Shown here: positions 9,736 through 24,405 of the stretch, one piece after another
Layout: each line of letters begins with the position of its first letter
How positions within the stretch are numbered: the first letter of the stretch is position 1
DNA from: Actinomycetes bacterium
GTDB lineage: Bacteria > Actinomycetota > Geothermincolia > Geothermincolales > JAHEXQ01
Assembly (NCBI GenBank): GCA_023252035.1
Contig: JAHEXQ010000004.1
Coordinates: 1-33,362, forward strand
Direction: 5' to 3'
DNA length: 33,362 bases
The notes under the pieces: model-generated
Seen by the model: only the letters and a program-made list of their open reading frames with translations
Databases searched by the model: none
What the model was told of the DNA's origin: nothing
Position numbers and translations under genes: made by a program

Positions 9736-9811
9736 CTGGTGCCTGTGCAGATTATTGCAGGGAACTTCACGTTCGGTTTCCCGGGTGGGACTGCGGGTAA
9801 CGAATCATAAT

Positions 9812-9863
9812 CCTTGCCGATCAACTACAATCCGGGGCCCCGGATTGTAGTTGATCGGCAAGG
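9812..9863. repeat. Palindromic element family A, copy 2 (perfect 52-bp palindrome, 26-bp arms)
   Basis: CCTTGCCGATCAACTACAATCCGGGG/CCCCGGATTGTAGTTGATCGGCAAGG. Confidence 0.95.
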
Positions 9864-9881
9864 TCTCGGCGTTTGAGCCGG

Positions 9882-13751: not shown

Positions 13752-14615
13752 TATGGAGCGGCGGCGAGGTCATCGACCCTGGCCTTCTTCGGCATCACGG
13801 TCGTCTGGGGAGACACGTTTGCGCTGATCAAACGCTTGCTGGATTACCTACCGCCCTTCTGGTTCATGGCTCTGCGGTTCGGGTTGGCCTTCTGCATCAC
13901 CGCGCCCGCGGTTGTGCTGCGCGGCGAAAGTCCCAGCTCGGCGGGGTTGAGAGCGGGATTGCTCCTGGGCGTGCTGCTCTACGTTTACTATACGCTGCAG
14001 ACCTTCGGGCTGCAGGGGACCATGGCGAGCAACGCCGCCCTCATCACCGGCATGTTCGTGGTTTTCATCCCCCTGCTGTCCGTCGTGATGCTGAATAAGC
14101 GCCCGGACTCGCGGGAGCTTATCGGAGTAGTGACGGCGCTGGTCGGGCTGATTACTCTCACCGTGCAGCCGCATACCCGCGGAAGCATAGGCGACGTGAT
14201 GCTCCTGGCAGCACCGTGTTGCTATCGCTCTACGTGATAGCCATGGATATCTACGCCCCCATCGTGGACCTGCTGGTGCTGACCGCCGTGCAGATGGGGG
14301 TGCTGTTCGTGGGCGTTACCCTTTCGGGCTCATTACCGAGAAGGCCGTCTTGCGCCCGCTGAAATTCGTCTGGTTCTCCGTGGCTGTCTGCGGAATCTTC
14401 GGATCGGCACTGGCCTTCTGGGTACAGGGCTATGCGCAGAGGGAGCTTCCGCTATCCCGCATGGCTGTGATCCTGATAATGGAGCCGGTCTTCGGGGTGA
14501 TTTTCAGCATGGCCATCCTGGGGGGGGGCAGCTGGGAGCGCGCGGCTGGACCGGATGCGCTCTCATCCTGACGGGAATGCTCATCTCCGAACTGTGCCGG
14601 CACGCGCATCCCTAG
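13752..14615 (+). pseudogene. EamA/DMT-family transporter with multiple frameshifts
   Basis: AFFGITVVWGDTFALIKRLLDYLPPFWFMALRF...; frames change near 14210, 14325 and the G8 tract at 14521, ending ...GWTGCALILTGMLISELCRHAHP*. Confidence 0.75.
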
Positions 14616-14663: not shown

Positions 14664-15959
14664 TTACGATTGGTCGTCGGTCTGCAGGTGCAGGTCTTGG
14701 GAGTGCAGCCTTGGTTCCGGTTCCTGCGCCCGTTCCGCCGCCAGGGGCAGCCGCATGACCACGTCGGACCATTTCCCCGGGATGTTCACCAGGTTGAGGC
14801 TGCCCCGGTGGGCCAGCAGGATTCTCTGCGCAAGGGCAAGCCCCAGGTCACCGTGTTCCGGCCGGATGTTCTCCTGGGTGTCCTGTGGGGCGCCGATGGG
14901 GTTGACACGCCGCGTCCGGGACTCGCGGAAGCTGATGGTAAGCACCAGGTCGCTGGCGTCAGCCTTAGCGGAGATGGTCACCCGGCTACCGGGCTCGCAC
15001 TTGGTGGCCACGAACTTGAAGATATTGGCGAAGGATTTATCCAGGCGCTGCGGGTCCGCGTGGACGGTTGGCAGATCGGGCGGCATTGCGAAGCTGACGG
15101 AAGAGAGTCCGCAGACCGGCTCCAGGAAAGGCAGATTCTCCTCAGCCAGGCGCCCCAGGCTGACCTCCTTGCATACGAGATGCGCCTTCCCTGACTCCAG
15201 GCGCGATATGTCCAGCAGGTCCTCGACCAGGGCTGTGAGGCGCAAGGCCTCGTCGTTGATTATCTCGGCAAACTCGCGCTCCTTATCCGGGGAGAAATCC
15301 TGTTGGAGGAGCATCTCCACGAATCCCTGGATGGACGTGAGCGGGGTGCGCATCTCGAAAGAAACGGCGGAGACGAAGTCGGAGGTCGATCTCTCCATCT
15401 CGGATATCCGCTTCAGCTCGGCCAGAGCCTCCTCCTTCTGCTTCACCTGCTCGCGGCTCTCCGCGTCTAACCGGTTGACGAAATAGCCCGCCACGAAGAA
15501 GCTCGCCACCTGCACCGCCAGCATCTGTACATCCTTCAGTTCGAGGTTGCCCCGCAACAAGACCGTCAGGAGATAGGCGGCGGATACGGTCCCCGCCAGC
15601 AGGAAGAAGCTGTGCAGGTAAGCGAAGTAAGCCAAGCCGAAGGAACTGATCAGCAGAAGCAGAGGGAAGACCGGGCTGAAGGCGCCCCCGGTGACGTATA
15701 TGGCTACCAGGGTGGCCGCGACGAACATACCGCTGCCGAAGAGGTAGGAGACGGTGAAGTGGCGCAGGAGGACGCCCTCCACCGGCGCGATGGCCAGCGC
15801 CATATTCACGAGAAAGGAGGCCAGCAGCAAGGCGAGCAACGGGCCATAGCTTATCTCCACGCGGTGAGGCAGCAGAAGGCACCCGATCATCACCGGTATC
15901 ATCACCCAGAGCGAGTGGGAGAGGGTCTGCCAGAGGTTTGTCCGGAACTCCATGCTCAA
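14664..15959 (-). CDS. membrane histidine-kinase-like protein with degenerate catalytic core (pseudokinase)
   Basis: N-terminal multi-TM region, then DFVSAVSFEMRTPLTSIQGFVEML (His replaced by Phe); N box and G1 box not conserved. Confidence 0.9.
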   Translation of the reverse strand: MSMEFRTNLWQTLSHSLWVMIPVMIGCLLLPHRVEISYGPLLALLLASFLVNMALAIAPVEGVLLRHFTVSYLFGSGMFVAATLVAIYVTGGAFSPVFPLLLLISSFGLAYFAYLHSFFLLAGTVSAAYLLTVLLRGNLELKDVQMLAVQVASFFVAGYFVNRLDAESREQVKQKEEALAELKRISEMERSTSDFVSAVSFEMRTPLTSIQGFVEMLLQQDFSPDKEREFAEIINDEALRLTALVEDLLDISRLESGKAHLVCKEVSLGRLAEENLPFLEPVCGLSSVSFAMPPDLPTVHADPQRLDKSFANIFKFVATKCEPGSRVTISAKADASDLVLTISFRESRTRRVNPIGAPQDTQENIRPEHGDLGLALAQRILLAHRGSLNLVNIPGKWSDVVMRLPLAAERAQEPEPRLHSQDLHLQTDDQS

Positions 15960-17203
15960 CTTCCCTTTATTGGCAGCAGCACCGAGAAGGTGCTCCCCTG
16001 GCCGTATTCGCTGGCCACCCGGACCTGGCCTTTGTGCATGTCGGCCAGGTGTTTGATGATGGCCAGCCCCAGGCCCGTACCGCCGATCTCGGCAACGGCA
16101 CTGTCCTCACTGCGCCGGAATCGCTCGAAGATGGACTGCAGGTCCTGCTCCCGGATGCCGAGGCCGCGGTCGGTCACGGATATCCTCATGAACTTTCCCT
16201 CTATGCCGGTGTCTATCTCGATGGGCCCGCCCTCGGGCGAGTACTTGATGGCATTGGAAATGAGGTTCTGCATTATCTGGTGCACGCGATCGCGGTCGGC
16301 GTAGACGAGTGGCAGCCTCTTACGCTCCTTGTAAGTGATGGTGTGCCGGACGGTCTGGGTGCGGAAGAATGTGATGTTCTCCTCGATGACCTGGCCGATG
16401 TCCAGCATCTCCTTGTCGAGCTCCGCGCCCGCGTCGATCTTGGACAGGTTCAGCAGGTTGGTGATCATGCGCGAGAGGCGCTCCGACTCGTTCAGGATTA
16501 TCTCGTAGAACTCGCCGCGCTTCTCCGGTGCCAGCTCGCGGGAGCGCAGCATCTCGCTGAATCCCTGGATGGAGGTGAGCGGCGTGCGCAATTCGTGGGA
16601 TACGGTGGAGATGAAATCCGTCTTGGCCTTATCGATCTGATGGATGAAACCGCTCAGGTTCAAAACCTCGTCGCGGGATAGCTGCTGCCGCTTCAACTCC
16701 TGCGCGACGCGGTTGGCTATAAAGCAGGTAAGGAAGAGATAGACGAGGTTGAAGGCTATCGGCTGCAGGTCATGCAGGACCGCGTTGGAGTAGCCGAAGA
16801 TCACGGCCAGGTAAAAGATGGCGAGTATGGCCGTGCTCACCATGGAGAGGGAGAGCGTGAAGAGGGTCCCCGCCACCAGGGGGCCCACCAGCAGCAGACA
16901 GTAGAAGGGGCTCGCAAGGCCGCCGGTGTAGAAGACCAGCACGCAGATGACGAAGTAGAAAGGGACGAGCCCCAGGAAGAACGGAGGGACGCGTATGAAC
17001 ATCTTCCCGCCGCGCGCCGGGAAGATGTTCACCAGGTTCATCACGATGGCCATGACTCCTATAGTCACGAGAGAGAGGATGGCAACGGAGTAGTCGATGG
17101 GCACCCGGTGCGGGAGATAGAGAATGACGGCGAGTCCCGGGAGAGCCACCAGGCATATGGTCGTCAATATGGAGCTCAGTCTTCGCTCGAAGGGCATAGT
17201 CAT
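15956..17203 (-). CDS. membrane sensor histidine kinase (HisKA-HATPase)
   Basis: DFISTVSHELRTPLTSIQGFSEML H box; NLISNAIKYSPEGG; TDRGLGI; GGTGLGLAIIKHL; ATGA overlap with the downstream kinase-like gene. Confidence 0.96.
   Translation of the reverse strand: MTMPFERRLSSILTTICLVALPGLAVILYLPHRVPIDYSVAILSLVTIGVMAIVMNLVNIFPARGGKMFIRVPPFFLGLVPFYFVICVLVFYTGGLASPFYCLLLVGPLVAGTLFTLSLSMVSTAILAIFYLAVIFGYSNAVLHDLQPIAFNLVYLFLTCFIANRVAQELKRQQLSRDEVLNLSGFIHQIDKAKTDFISTVSHELRTPLTSIQGFSEMLRSRELAPEKRGEFYEIILNESERLSRMITNLLNLSKIDAGAELDKEMLDIGQVIEENITFFRTQTVRHTITYKERKRLPLVYADRDRVHQIMQNLISNAIKYSPEGGPIEIDTGIEGKFMRISVTDRGLGIREQDLQSIFERFRRSEDSAVAEIGGTGLGLAIIKHLADMHKGQVRVASEYGQGSTFSVLLPIKGS
16997..17030. repeat. 13-bp inverted repeat inside histidine kinase CDS
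   Basis: GAACATCTTCCCG-ccgcgcgc-CGGGAAGATGTTC. Confidence 0.85.
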
Positions 17204-17329: not shown

Positions 17330-17430
17330 TTGGCGGCCGCAACTTGAGCTCTGCGGGGGAGCGCCGGCGGGAAGCAGAAGGGATGGCCCGCAAGCGGTTA
17401 GAATACTTAGAGATGCGAGGTCTATCTACG

Positions 17431-19386
17431 ATGCGAAAGAGGATGCTGTTCGCTAGTCTGGCCGTGGCTATCATGGCGGCCGGTTTCGCGCTGCCGGCCG
17501 CGCCAGTAGCGATGGCGGCGGAGGCGGCGCCTTACCGCTGGGCCGGGGGCGACGACATCTGCGGATTCCCGCAGCCCGCCACCGTCTTCTACTTCGCCGA
17601 GGGCTGTACCAGGCACGGCTTTGACGAATGGCTCTGCATCCTGAATCCCAGCGACCAGCCGGCGCACATCGGCGTGGGATTCCTTTTTCCCGACGGAGCC
17701 CCCATGTCCCGCTACGACACTCTTCAACCGGGAACCCGCTATACGCTCTACGTGAACCAGCAAGTGGGTCCGGAGCGGGACGTCTCCGTCACCGTGGCCT
17801 CGGACGTGCCCATCGTGGCGGAGAGGCCCATGTACTTTAACTACCGCGGCGTCTGGGCCGGCAACCATGTTGCGGCGGGTTCGAGCGTTAAATCCACCGA
17901 ATGGTATTTCGCGGAAGGAACCACGCGCGCGGGGTTCGAAGAATGGCTCTGCGTGCTGAACCCCGATGCGGGCACGGCCCAGGTCCAGGTGGAGCTCATG
18001 GAGGCCGGCGGTATCGCGGGCAAGTGGAGCTTCCCCGTGGGCCCCTATTCGCGCGGCACCCTCTCCGTCAATGCGCTGGCGGGGCCGAACAAAGACGTAT
18101 CTATCCGGGCGAGTTCGGATGCGCCCGTGGTGGCCGAGCGGCCCATGTACTTCAATTACATAAAGGGGATCAGCGGGGGGCACGATGCCATGGGGGCCCC
18201 CGCCATCTCCACCGCCTGGTATTTCGCCGAGGGCACCACACGGGCCGGGTTCGACGAATACCTCTGCATGTTCAATCCGGGTTCGGAGACGGCCACCGCC
18301 AACGTGGCTTTTCTGACCTCAGGGGGCGCCTCGGTAACCCGCAGCGTGAAGGTACAGCCGCGGAGCCGTTCTACCATGGTCGTGCGGAGCGAGGTGGGTG
18401 ACGGGAAGGACGTCTCCATCCAGCTCGGTTCGGACAAACCGATAGTCGCAGAGCGGCCCATGTACTTCAGCTATGCGGGCGGCGTGGGAGGTGGCTCTGT
18501 CGCTTCGGGCAGCTCGACGCCCTCGAAGACCTGGTATTTCGCCGAAGGTTGCACGCGGGCCGGCTTCGATGAATGGCTGATCCTTATGAATCCGGCGACC
18601 CAGAGTGCCGACGTACAGGTCAGGTACTTGACGGGCGCGACCAGCGTCACGACCGCGTACAAGGTGGAGCCGGGCACGCGAGCCACCGTGCGGGTCAACG
18701 GTGAAGTGGGGGTGGACCAGGACGTGGGAATGGTAATCACTTCCAGCCAGGGCATCGTCGCTGAACGGCCCATCTACCTGCAATATCTCCCGCTGAGCGG
18801 GCCTACGCCCTTCGTCCTGGCTACGGTGGACGGGCTCACGCTGCTGGGCCCGGTCTCTTACGAGCAACTGGTGGGCATCATGTACCATGAGGCGCCGGTG
18901 TCCGATGTCGGCGCCGGCTCAGCCAACGCCAGGACCATGCAGCCGCAGGGCGGCTGCATGGGCAACGACAATTACGACAACACCCCCACGGACCTGATGC
19001 TCGGCCCTGCCGGCGATCCCTACTACTGGATCGAGGCCAGCCGCTACCGGGGCACCAATGCGACCACGGCCGTGGATGTGGGCTCACGCGCCGGCTGCCC
19101 GGTACTGGCGCCGGTCACCGGAACGGTGGAGGTGGCCTCGCCCTACATGCTCTATAACGCCTACCACGACAACGTCGTGAAGATCAGGCCCGACGGGCGT
19201 GCGGACGTCGTCGTGGAACTCCTGCATATGGGCGCGCTGACAGTCAAAGTGGGGGACCGGGTGCAGGCGGGGGTCAGCGTGGTCGGGACGGTCAACGACC
19301 TTTCCAGGTATTTTCAGTCAGATATCGGCTACTACTACACGGGCGAAGACGGCAACCACGTGCACGTGGAGGTCGACGGCCAGTAA
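17431..19386 (+). CDS. secreted protein with four ~105-aa '(W/F)YFAEG' repeats and a C-terminal degenerate M23-peptidase-like domain
   Basis: Signal peptide MRKRMLFASLAVAIMAAGFALPAAPVAMAAEA; repeated YFAEG(C/T)TR.GF.E(W/Y)L...VAERPMYF; C-term APVTGTVEVA...HMGALTVKVGDRVQAG...NHVHVEV. Confidence 0.85.
   Translation: MRKRMLFASLAVAIMAAGFALPAAPVAMAAEAAPYRWAGGDDICGFPQPATVFYFAEGCTRHGFDEWLCILNPSDQPAHIGVGFLFPDGAPMSRYDTLQPGTRYTLYVNQQVGPERDVSVTVASDVPIVAERPMYFNYRGVWAGNHVAAGSSVKSTEWYFAEGTTRAGFEEWLCVLNPDAGTAQVQVELMEAGGIAGKWSFPVGPYSRGTLSVNALAGPNKDVSIRASSDAPVVAERPMYFNYIKGISGGHDAMGAPAISTAWYFAEGTTRAGFDEYLCMFNPGSETATANVAFLTSGGASVTRSVKVQPRSRSTMVVRSEVGDGKDVSIQLGSDKPIVAERPMYFSYAGGVGGGSVASGSSTPSKTWYFAEGCTRAGFDEWLILMNPATQSADVQVRYLTGATSVTTAYKVEPGTRATVRVNGEVGVDQDVGMVITSSQGIVAERPIYLQYLPLSGPTPFVLATVDGLTLLGPVSYEQLVGIMYHEAPVSDVGAGSANARTMQPQGGCMGNDNYDNTPTDLMLGPAGDPYYWIEASRYRGTNATTAVDVGSRAGCPVLAPVTGTVEVASPYMLYNAYHDNVVKIRPDGRADVVVELLHMGALTVKVGDRVQAGVSVVGTVNDLSRYFQSDIGYYYTGEDGNHVHVEVDGQ
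17587..18846 (+). repeat. four tandem protein-coding repeats, exact 315-bp spacing
   Basis: Repeat starts ([F/W]YFAEG codons) at 17587, 17902, 18217 and 18532. Confidence 0.9.
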
Positions 19387-20630: not shown

Positions 20631-21371
20631 TTACTGGGTGATCTCGCTGATGGGGACGTTCACCAACGGGGTCGAGGAGTACTGGGTCGTGCCCAAGTTG
20701 GGATCGATAGCCATGCTGGGAGAGGTGAAGCTACCGGTCACCGCTGTGCTGCCTACCCGATGGTACTCGAAATGTGTTCTCTGCCAGGAATAGTTCAGAT
20801 CCACGAGGCTGTCGTTCACCACCTGCTGCAACCCCACCGCCTCGACATAAGCCCTGGCCGGGTCTATGGCCGCGCCATGGGTGTCAAAGGTGAAGAACAC
20901 CTTCGTCGCCGGGCCGCCCGAATAGCTGGGGTAGCGCACCAGAGGACGCCAGATGAAGGAATCTTTGACGGCGTCCTTGCCGAAGAGCCAGAAGGTCCCG
21001 CTTCCAGTGTGTAATTTCAGCTGCAGCGGTGTGAATGACCCGGGAGGCTCGATGTTCAGGTTGGTGGGCCACTCGATGGTTATGTACAGGTGCACGAAAT
21101 TGGCCGAGTTGAAGGTGTCATGGCCCTGCAGGCCCCGGTAGTCGTTGATGATGGTGCTCTGGGGGTCGAGATCATCGGAGGGAACGATGTTGGTGAGGGT
21201 GTATCTATAGTCTCCCCAGGTTACGCCGGGTTTGGCGGGCGCGGCTGTGGTAGCCTGCGCCGCCTGCGTCTCCGCGACGACCTGCGGCAGCCGGCTCGCC
21301 AGGGGCAATCCCACAAATGTCGCCATCAGCGTCAGGAAAAAGATACCGGTGGCAACCGCCTTCTTTACCAC
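20631..21371 (-). CDS. secreted/membrane-anchored protein of unknown function
   Basis: N-terminal signal MVKKAVATGIFFLTLMATFVGLPLASRLP; no family recognised; GTG start. Confidence 0.75.
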   Translation of the reverse strand: MVKKAVATGIFFLTLMATFVGLPLASRLPQVVAETQAAQATTAAPAKPGVTWGDYRYTLTNIVPSDDLDPQSTIINDYRGLQGHDTFNSANFVHLYITIEWPTNLNIEPPGSFTPLQLKLHTGSGTFWLFGKDAVKDSFIWRPLVRYPSYSGGPATKVFFTFDTHGAAIDPARAYVEAVGLQQVVNDSLVDLNYSWQRTHFEYHRVGSTAVTGSFTSPSMAIDPNLGTTQYSSTPLVNVPISEITQ

Positions 21372-21583: not shown

Positions 21584-24307
21584 CTAGACATTCTCAAAGG
21601 CCATGGAGTCCACCACCGAGGTATAAGCTACGACGCTGCGATTCACTGCGCTCATGGCGGCGGATATGCCGTCCTTCAGGAAGTCGTCCTCCACCACTTG
21701 CTGGATCTGGCGGAGTATGTCGAGCACCTGCTTCATGGACCGCACGAAGTCCCCGGCGGAGTACTGTGGATAGGTGTCCATGATGTACTCCAACTCCATC
21801 CCCTCGGCCCAGTCGTAAACCACGTTCACGAAGCCGATGTCCGTCTGCCGGAGGAGGTCCAGGCTCTCCGCTTGCTCCACGGATTTAAGCTTGGCTTCCA
21901 TCGCGCGGGCGCGGGCGATAGCCGCTCGCAGCTTGGGGCGCCTCACCTCGCGCAGCATCAGCGGCCGGATGAGTCTGCCGCCTCGCCAGCGGGGCGCGCC
22001 GCCGTCCCGGGATTCGAAGACGAAAATTGAGGCGAACGCCGCCAACTCCGATGGTTCCAGTTCGTGGAAAACGCCCGCGCTGAGACATTCGGTCAGCAGG
22101 AGGTCGCACTCGTTGTGGATGGCGGAGAGCATGACGCCCTTATGTGTCGGCCGGTCGTCATCCAGGTATCCAAGCTGGTTCAGGACTGCGCGCACATTCT
22201 GCAGCTTTCGAGAAGCCACATCGCTGCGAGCTCCCATCTGCCGCCTTAGCTCCTCCATCTCCTTATGGAGGATGCCGGCAGTGCGGGCTGCGTTCTGACA
22301 TTCCTCGCGCCGCTCGCACTGGTGGCAGGGATGCAGCTCCAGGTCCGCGCGAGTCTCCTCGACCTCCTGGCGCAGCGTGCGGTCCGGATGGTCCTCCTCC
22401 AGCTCCTCAGTGGGCAGCCGGGGAGGCAGCTCGAACTTGGCCAGCGCGTCCATGAGGAACTTCCTGTTCTTCTTGGTCACCGGTGAAAGGTGTTTCTCCT
22501 CGATGTGGCCGATGGCCTGCGGCGGCGTCCGGAAATGCCGGTAGATGGCGTTGAGGTAGCGCCCATACCGGTCCAGGACTTTGATGCGCGGATTGCCCAC
22601 CTTATCCTCTCCCATACTCAGGACCACCGCGGCGCGCCGTTTACCGCTGCGGTCTATCACCAGCACGTCGCCGGCGACCAACTCCTGCAACTCGTGGTTT
22701 ATGGCTTCGGCCTTGCGCCGGTGGTGCCGCAAGGCCAACTCCTTCTCCAGCCGGGAGAGACGAGCACGCGCCTCCAGATAGTCCTCGGCCTCAGCCCGCT
22801 CGCAGGACATCTTCTCGAAGAGCTTCTTGATACGCCCTTCCAGCTTTTTCAAGTTGCGCTCCAGGCGCACGACTTCCTTGTCCGCGTGATACTGCGCGAA
22901 GCTCAGGTTCAGAACGTGGACCGCTTCGGTGAAGTCGTAGTTCCTGAGCAGGTTGGCGGCCATGTTGTAGGAGATGCCGAAGCTGGAGGTGATGGGCAGG
23001 CTCGCGGTGCGCGCCAGATGCTGCACCTCACCCAGGGTGACGAAGGGGCTGTAGAGGATGACGGCGTTGCCCACCTTATCGATGCCGCGCCGTCCCGCCC
23101 GCCCGGTGAACTGGGTGTACTGCGTGGAGGTGAGCATCTCGTGGGTCTCCCCCTGGAACTTGTAGAGCGACTCGATGACGCAGGTCTTGGCGGGCATGTT
23201 GATGCCCAGGGAGAGGGTCTCCGTGGCGAAGACCACCTTGACCAGGCCTTGTGCGAAGAGATCCTCGACTATCTCCTTGAAGATGGGCAAGAGGCCTGCG
23301 TGGTGGGCGGCCAGCCCCAGCTTCAGCGAGTTCAGGAAGTGATCGAAGCCGAAGACCCGCAGGTCCTCTTCGGGCAGCCAGGCGGCCCTCTCCAGCGCTT
23401 GCTTCTCGATGACGGCCTTCTCCTCAGGGGTGGTCAGGTCCAGTCCGTCCTCCCGGCAGTGCATGACTGCGGCGTCGCATCCGGCCCGGGAGAATATGAA
23501 GTAGATGGCGGGCAGCATCTTCGACTGGCCCAGACGGTAGGCGACCTGGGACCGCTTCGGTATCAGGTTGCGGGAGGCGCGCGCCTGGGCTTTCTCCCCG
23601 TTGCTCTTTCCGCCCTTGCTCCTGGCGGCCTGCTCCGCGCTGCACACGGTGCGCTCGGCGTTGTCCGAGAAGAGGTTCACCATGGTGCCGTTGATGAAGT
23701 AGTAGTGGCGCAGGGGTACTGGCCGGCGCTCGCTCTGGACGACGACCATCTCGCCGCGCAGGTCGTTCATCCAGCCTCCGAAGTCATCCGGATTGGCCAC
23801 GGTCGCCGACAGGCCCACGATCTTGACGTCGGCGGGCAGGAGGATGATTATCTCCTCCCAGACCGCTCCCCGGAATGGGTCGGTCAGGTAGTGGCACTCG
23901 TCCAGGATCACGTACCGTAGGTCCGTCAGGGTCTCGGACTGCTCGTAGATCATGTTTCGCAGGATCTCGGTGGTCATTATTATGAGTGGCGCCTCCGGGT
24001 GGATGGTGTTGTCTCCCGTCAAGAGGCCGACCTTGCCGTCGCCGTAAATGCGTGAGAAGTCGCGGAACTTCTGGTTGCTCAGGGCTTTGAGCGGGGTGGT
24101 GTAGAAGGCCTTCGCGCCGGAATTCTGCGCCAGGAATACGGCGTACTCGGCTACGACCGTCTTGCCGGAGCCGGTGGGGGCGACGACCAGGACGGAGCTG
24201 TCGGAGTTCAAGCTCTCAATGGCCGCCCGCTGAAAATCATCCAGGGGAAAGGGGTAGTTTCTCTCGAATTCCTCAAGGTAACGTGCTGCTGCTTTATTCG
24301 GTTCCAT
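21584..24307 (-). CDS. Ski2-like DEAD/DEAH-box RNA helicase (HelY type)
   Basis: VLVVAPTGSGKTVVAEYAV, DECHYL, SATVANPDDF, QFTGRAGRRGID. Start taken at MEPNKAAARYLEEFE. Confidence 0.94.
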   Translation of the reverse strand: MEPNKAAARYLEEFERNYPFPLDDFQRAAIESLNSDSSVLVVAPTGSGKTVVAEYAVFLAQNSGAKAFYTTPLKALSNQKFRDFSRIYGDGKVGLLTGDNTIHPEAPLIIMTTEILRNMIYEQSETLTDLRYVILDECHYLTDPFRGAVWEEIIILLPADVKIVGLSATVANPDDFGGWMNDLRGEMVVVQSERRPVPLRHYYFINGTMVNLFSDNAERTVCSAEQAARSKGGKSNGEKAQARASRNLIPKRSQVAYRLGQSKMLPAIYFIFSRAGCDAAVMHCREDGLDLTTPEEKAVIEKQALERAAWLPEEDLRVFGFDHFLNSLKLGLAAHHAGLLPIFKEIVEDLFAQGLVKVVFATETLSLGINMPAKTCVIESLYKFQGETHEMLTSTQYTQFTGRAGRRGIDKVGNAVILYSPFVTLGEVQHLARTASLPITSSFGISYNMAANLLRNYDFTEAVHVLNLSFAQYHADKEVVRLERNLKKLEGRIKKLFEKMSCERAEAEDYLEARARLSRLEKELALRHHRRKAEAINHELQELVAGDVLVIDRSGKRRAAVVLSMGEDKVGNPRIKVLDRYGRYLNAIYRHFRTPPQAIGHIEEKHLSPVTKKNRKFLMDALAKFELPPRLPTEELEEDHPDRTLRQEVEETRADLELHPCHQCERREECQNAARTAGILHKEMEELRRQMGARSDVASRKLQNVRAVLNQLGYLDDDRPTHKGVMLSAIHNECDLLLTECLSAGVFHELEPSELAAFASIFVFESRDGGAPRWRGGRLIRPLMLREVRRPKLRAAIARARAMEAKLKSVEQAESLDLLRQTDIGFVNVVYDWAEGMELEYIMDTYPQYSAGDFVRSMKQVLDILRQIQQVVEDDFLKDGISAAMSAVNRSVVAYTSVVDSMAFENV

Positions 24308-24313
24308 GTACCC

Positions 24314-24319
24314 ATTGTA
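24314..24319 (-). promoter_or_regulatory. -10 box (TACAAT) 6 nt upstream of helicase ATG
   Basis: Minus strand reads TACAAT-GGGTAC-ATG. Confidence 0.5.
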
Positions 24320-24405
24320 GCAGACGCCGTTCAGGAGGCCGGATGAGGCATGCCCTTCGTGCCCCTTTCCTTTTGCCGCCATGCAGGTCTCGGGCTCTTA
24401 GGGCA

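Follow-up and report, generated by a model that had tools for sequence, protein, structure and literature searches.

Two adjacent minus-strand genes in the window, the stretch of 33,362 nucleotides analysed here as a whole, encode a pair of paralogous membrane proteins of the histidine kinase family, of which one (gene A) appears live and the other (gene B) dead, and which recur side by side through the order to which the genome belongs. We propose, with a probability of about 0.6, that B is a non-catalytic partner of A in a receptor with two sensors and one active site, where it would set the balance between the kinase and phosphatase activities of A. The genes and the sites that distinguish them are as follows.

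15956..17203, minus strand: gene A, sensor histidine kinase, 415 aa, ATG start (open reading frame)
14664..15959, minus strand: gene B, pseudo-histidine kinase, 431 aa, TTG start (open reading frame)
15956..15959, minus strand: TTGA overlap of the stop codon of A (TGA) with the start codon of B (TTG), read at the junction
16595..16597, minus strand: phospho-acceptor His203 of A
15357..15359, minus strand: Phe201 of B at the phospho-acceptor His site (Phe in all 15 B sequences)
15189..15383, minus strand: DHp (HisKA) domain, which is the best conserved region of B (mean pairwise identity 0.76)
14739..15032, minus strand: degenerate CA (HATPase_c) domain of B, from which the N, G1, F and G2 boxes are missing

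Gene A is, judged by its sequence, a complete HisKA/HATPase_c histidine kinase. Six predicted transmembrane helices are followed by the HisKA domain (78 bits; Pfam cut-off 26.9) and the HATPase_c domain (99 bits; cut-off 26.4); all catalytic boxes are present, and they are invariant among 14 orthologues, with the canonical residue wherever a sequence covers the site. The nearest solved relative in the PDB, searched with the A profile, is HK853, with DivL only 13th. Within the coding sequence, positions 16996-17031 form a near-perfect palindrome of 36 bp (34/36) in the segment encoding VNIFPARGGKMFI.

Gene B, in sequence and in predicted structure, is a pseudo-histidine kinase: it retains the DHp-CA fold from which the catalytic residues are gone. 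It scores 64 bits against HisKA, above the cut-off, and 20.2 bits against HATPase_c, below it. Comparison of 15 B sequences, the window's own included, reveals losses well beyond the His-to-Phe substitution: the Mg-binding Asn of the N box is Phe in the window and Phe, Tyr, His or Gln across the set; N1, N2, the G1 Asp and the G2 glycines are lost or replaced; and neither the G1 Asp, nor DxGxG, nor a regular F box is left. G2 reads HGDLGLALA in the window, with Asp and other residues in place of its glycines across the set (the second glycine is Asp in 14/15), and positions newly fixed in B specifically include G377 to D (14/15) and G403 to W (15/15). With such losses a protein of this family is unable to bind ATP in the normal manner or to take phosphate from it. 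The residues flanking the lost His (E, R, T and P) are all retained in the window; beside the His site the E is kept in 15/15 sequences and the T in 14/15, the exception being the orthologue L038, which has Ala. The H box of B is thus altered at a single point, not eroded. In the AlphaFold2 model of full-length B (pLDDT 71.6, pTM 0.53), six helices span the membrane, the DHp domain forms a long hairpin, and the CA domain has a lid without structure; Pfam matches no PAS domain in B, and the six-helix sensor stands in its place.

These results bear out a first-pass annotation of the same DNA, which had called A canonical, had read in B the Phe for His, the altered N box, the missing G1 and the HGDLGLALA at G2, and had proposed aligning both proteins to the HisKA and HATPase_c models, which A passes twice and B once. 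The two minus-strand reading frames lie where it had placed them, with the overlap of 4 bp, and the membrane-domain pattern that it had noticed in both proves to be part of a full-length paralogy that includes the membrane domain (28% identity, E 6e-42). In several orthologues and lineages A and B overlap or lie very close together, which suggests that their translation is coupled. At the junctions of L034, L036, L038 and L045, B follows directly after the TGA stop of A, in the same frame as A; a junction of this type could be the source of a fusion like that described below.

Among 18 genomes analysed from the order (Actinomycetota), 15 contain the tandem pair, counting that of the window, as do all 12 that are at least 90% complete. 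The exceptions are G014, in which the genes are fused; G017, a 62% complete assembly with fragments at contig ends; and G011. A true loss of the pair in G011 was considered and set aside, as the neighbouring PP-loop gene is missing too and an assembly gap is more likely. Wherever the contigs allow, A and B are adjacent in genomes of the order and neither occurs without the other. No full-length match to B was found outside the order among 397 genomes drawn from the phylum, and among close relatives a GTDB scan reached just one, the Actinomycetota isolate STE_163.

All 15 B genes are open frames, with no frameshifted orthologue. Within genera, dN/dS (NG86) is approximately 0.20-0.35 for B in full, lower for its DHp domain, and 0.12-0.29 for A, values that are rough because synonymous sites are partly saturated and YN00 gave no result on some pairs. 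Mean pairwise identity of the DHp domain is 0.76 in B versus 0.78 in A, and of the CA domain 0.47 versus 0.66. On these estimates B is under purifying selection, and a structural or regulatory role as a partner fits its being conserved mainly in the helices of dimerisation and docking. A and B fall into separate clades of the tree (support 0.98 and 0.95) with similar internal branching, which places the duplication before the order. The dedicated pseudokinase suggested in the first-pass annotation is therefore well supported, with Phe in 15/15 sequences, open frames and dN/dS well below 1; an intact H box in relatives or frameshifts, which were to have spoken for simple decay, occur in none of the 15 B sequences.

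A further sign of partnership comes from genus g9, where a single draft genome (G014) carries A and a B-like half in one reading frame of 858 aa; the fusion is whole there only, with fragments in G017. Its first half resembles A, whereas the second, which has Lys at the His site, reaches 60.8 bits against the B profile and 19.5 bits against the A profile. Natural fusion of neighbouring proteins is classical evidence that they are partners. When the DHp domains of A and B were compared by the mirror-tree method, co-evolution did not rise significantly above the species background (partial r 0.23, p 0.13), and the retention in A of all sequence features sufficient for action as a homodimer counts against a heterodimer. 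From co-occurrence, gene coupling, the constrained DHp domain, the g9 fusion and published precedents we infer that B heterodimerises with A.

The sensor domains offer a hint of the signal.

16709..17197, minus strand: membrane domain of A, six helices, with LPH and GGxxSP motifs (alignment; AlphaFold2 of the domain alone)
15465..15953, minus strand: membrane domain of B, a paralogue of the A domain (alignment; AlphaFold2 of full B)
16904..16924, minus strand: GGLASPF motif of A, which lies between TM3 and TM4 (from profiles compared with RegB relatives)
15666..15689, minus strand: GGAFSPVF motif of B, in the same position as that of A

Both domains look like distant relatives of the quinone sensor RegB, a six-helix protein with GGXXNPF as its quinone motif (PMC8191878). 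The motif is GGLASPF in the A of the window and GGxxSP(L/F) in most other A sequences, in the register of the GGxxNPF of RegB with Ser for Asn; hhalign comparison with RegB relatives brings the motifs into register and scores 42.4, and the highest of 60 locally shuffled controls reaches 22.4. The membrane domain of A alone is modelled by AlphaFold2 with a pLDDT of 87.8, and a fold search of the PDB with the membrane domain returned nothing significant (best match adenylyl cyclase 8, E 0.71). The best NCBIfam match of A is PnpS (238.7 bits), and the RegB model NF033792 (cut-off 350 bits) is absent from the best 25. The likeness to RegB/PrrB/ActS (PMC8191878) consists of six transmembrane helices, a GGxxNPF-like motif and similarity of membrane-domain profiles. 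The differences are the Ser found here for Asn, and that RegB works as one catalytic kinase, belongs to Proteobacteria and has a regulator dedicated to it. Quinone binding by these membrane domains is a lead only.

The window contains no linked response regulator from which the output of the pair could be read. The first-pass annotation had seen none there; receiver domains are in fact absent from the whole contig, and 22 are encoded elsewhere in the genome. Two genes upstream of the pair help to place the locus among its relatives.

20634..21371, minus strand: probably exported protein, 246 aa (synteny; no Pfam or NCBIfam match)
21587..24382, minus strand: helicase-like gene that marks the syntenic locus (synteny; function from sequence only)

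In genomes of family f2 the locus runs from the helicase through the probably exported protein, which belongs to no known family, to A, B and a PP-loop protein; beyond these, on the opposite strand, come a single-domain response regulator and the gene for undecaprenyl diphosphate synthase. The window has the helicase, the exported protein and A-B in common with f2, with two other genes in between; A-B stands apart from these neighbours in f3. The exported protein is upstream of A-B in the f2 genomes with contig coverage except G014, beside whose fused gene it was not found; it is also near A-B in f1, and is a possible extracytoplasmic partner. The single-domain regulator (L034:4451-4864) lies 2-4 kb from the pair in f2 genomes with coverage, and no close orthologue of it was found in the genome of the window. 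As a fixed partner of the pair it was rejected, given this distance in f2 and the lack of any such gene by the pair in f1 and f3; it is a candidate partner in f2 only. Elsewhere in the window, a gene with DUF5719 repeats and an M23 peptidase domain (17344-19386) diverges from gene A; an ORF for a membrane protein of 133 aa (13836-14237) resembles, by its sequence, the front of a longer EamA-type transporter and is possibly truncated; and palindromes at 2021-2055 and 9809-9866 have in common the core AACTACAATCCGGGG, of which there are 18 copies in the genome versus 0 for the reversed control, so that they look like a dispersed REP-like element.

We envisage that one six-helix membrane histidine kinase was duplicated before the last common ancestor of the order, the copies remaining side by side ever since, and that B lost ATP binding and phosphate acceptance and retained its own sensor domain and an intact pair of DHp helices. 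B would then pair with A through the DHp four-helix bundle to form a physical heterodimer, a receptor in which two sensor domains would govern one active site; B would set the kinase/phosphatase balance of A; the signal, to go by the RegB-like membrane domain, may be quinone or redox state; and A would pass its phosphate to an unlinked response regulator. Activity of an A:B dimer demands that A phosphorylate its own His in cis, as HK853 has been reported to do (PMC4734776); A may work in the same way, and the dimer could then stay active. Whether the pair is throughout the order an obligate heterodimeric receptor kinase with one active site, a live RegB-like kinase joined to a dead regulatory and sensing twin and, in one genus, built as a single chain, is a broader claim that we put forward tentatively, as possible but somewhat doubtful.

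Pseudo-histidine kinases and heterodimers of kinases are already known (DivL, RetS/GacS, FasB/FasC and ChrS), and the first two of these systems suggest other roles for B. DivL of Caulobacter is the top PDB match for both the B profile and the B model, by a narrow margin over HK853; it has a DHp-CA fold with an aromatic residue in place of His (Tyr in DivL, Phe in B), lacks kinase activity and controls another kinase (PMC4211667; PDB 4q20). DivL binds DivK~P (PMC4211667), and B has kept the H-box surface that contacts regulators; B might by analogy be a reader of regulator state and not a sensor subunit, its DHp domain docking a phosphorylated response regulator and informing A. We regard this as unlikely: DivL reads DivK~P and has PAS sensors, whereas B retains a full six-helix sensor domain paralogous to that of A, and in f1 and f3 the surroundings of the pair yielded no response regulator. 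The gene for DivL, moreover, is not known to lie beside that of its kinase or of any paralogous kinase; its partners are CckA and DivK. In Pseudomonas aeruginosa, RetS blocks GacS by pairing with it (PMC12189002), and a dead partner would likewise poison a kinase that works in trans, so that B might titrate A away from active homodimers into inactive heterodimers. This is improbable, since A is nearest to kinases of the HK853 type and HK853 works in cis (PMC4734776), whence a dead partner need not poison it, and since adjacency and fusion imply equal dosage, which would leave A permanently off unless a signal separated the two. RetS and GacS are hybrid kinases and not a tandem live/dead pair.

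A dedicated phosphatase for the response regulator of A would be another use for a protein without kinase activity. In the HisKA proteins studied, the Thr/Asn of the H box is needed exclusively for phosphatase activity and the neighbouring acidic residue, Glu, for kinase activity (PMC3510030). The presence of Thr at the former position in 14/15 B sequences is what such a role predicts, yet the kinase-linked Glu is kept in 15/15, which indicates that retention does not track phosphatase function, and L038 has Ala at the Thr site; the odds seem to us clearly poor. That B might be a duplicate in decay or an artefact of sequencing, as damage in every one of its catalytic boxes could suggest, is scarcely credible and was rejected: its 15 genes are open and share the His-to-Phe change, dN/dS lies far below 1, and the DHp domain is as conserved as that of A.

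The closest parallels to a non-catalytic partner differ in construction. FasB and FasC of group A Streptococcus are paired histidine kinase-like proteins, one of them a proposed pseudokinase, that form a heterodimer by bacterial two-hybrid assay (PMC12675982); as here, two adjacent genes encode six-helix kinase-like proteins, but FasC keeps the phospho-acceptor His (H246) and FasB provides the kinase domain, whereas A has both and B neither, and no regulator gene lies beside the pair in the window. RetS and GacS are similar insofar as one kinase-like protein controls another by heterodimerisation (PMC12189002). In Corynebacterium glutamicum a dead paralogue, ChrS, modulates a live kinase (PMC9491836); it is a laboratory-evolved frameshift allele and not a conserved natural gene, and no heterodimer was seen for its truncated form. 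The open literature searched, of which coverage is incomplete, contains no report of the present pair or of a conserved pair of live and dead paralogues so built.

Bacterial histidine kinases are generally assumed to act as homodimers, and well-documented pseudo-histidine kinases are, to our knowledge, few. Annotation based on domains would label B a histidine kinase, which it cannot be. A live/dead pair that spans an order, together with a natural single-chain fusion, makes a clean system for studying the role of the dead half in a kinase dimer. The pair could show whether one active site is enough, whether the live half acts in cis, and how a dimer integrates its two sensor domains.
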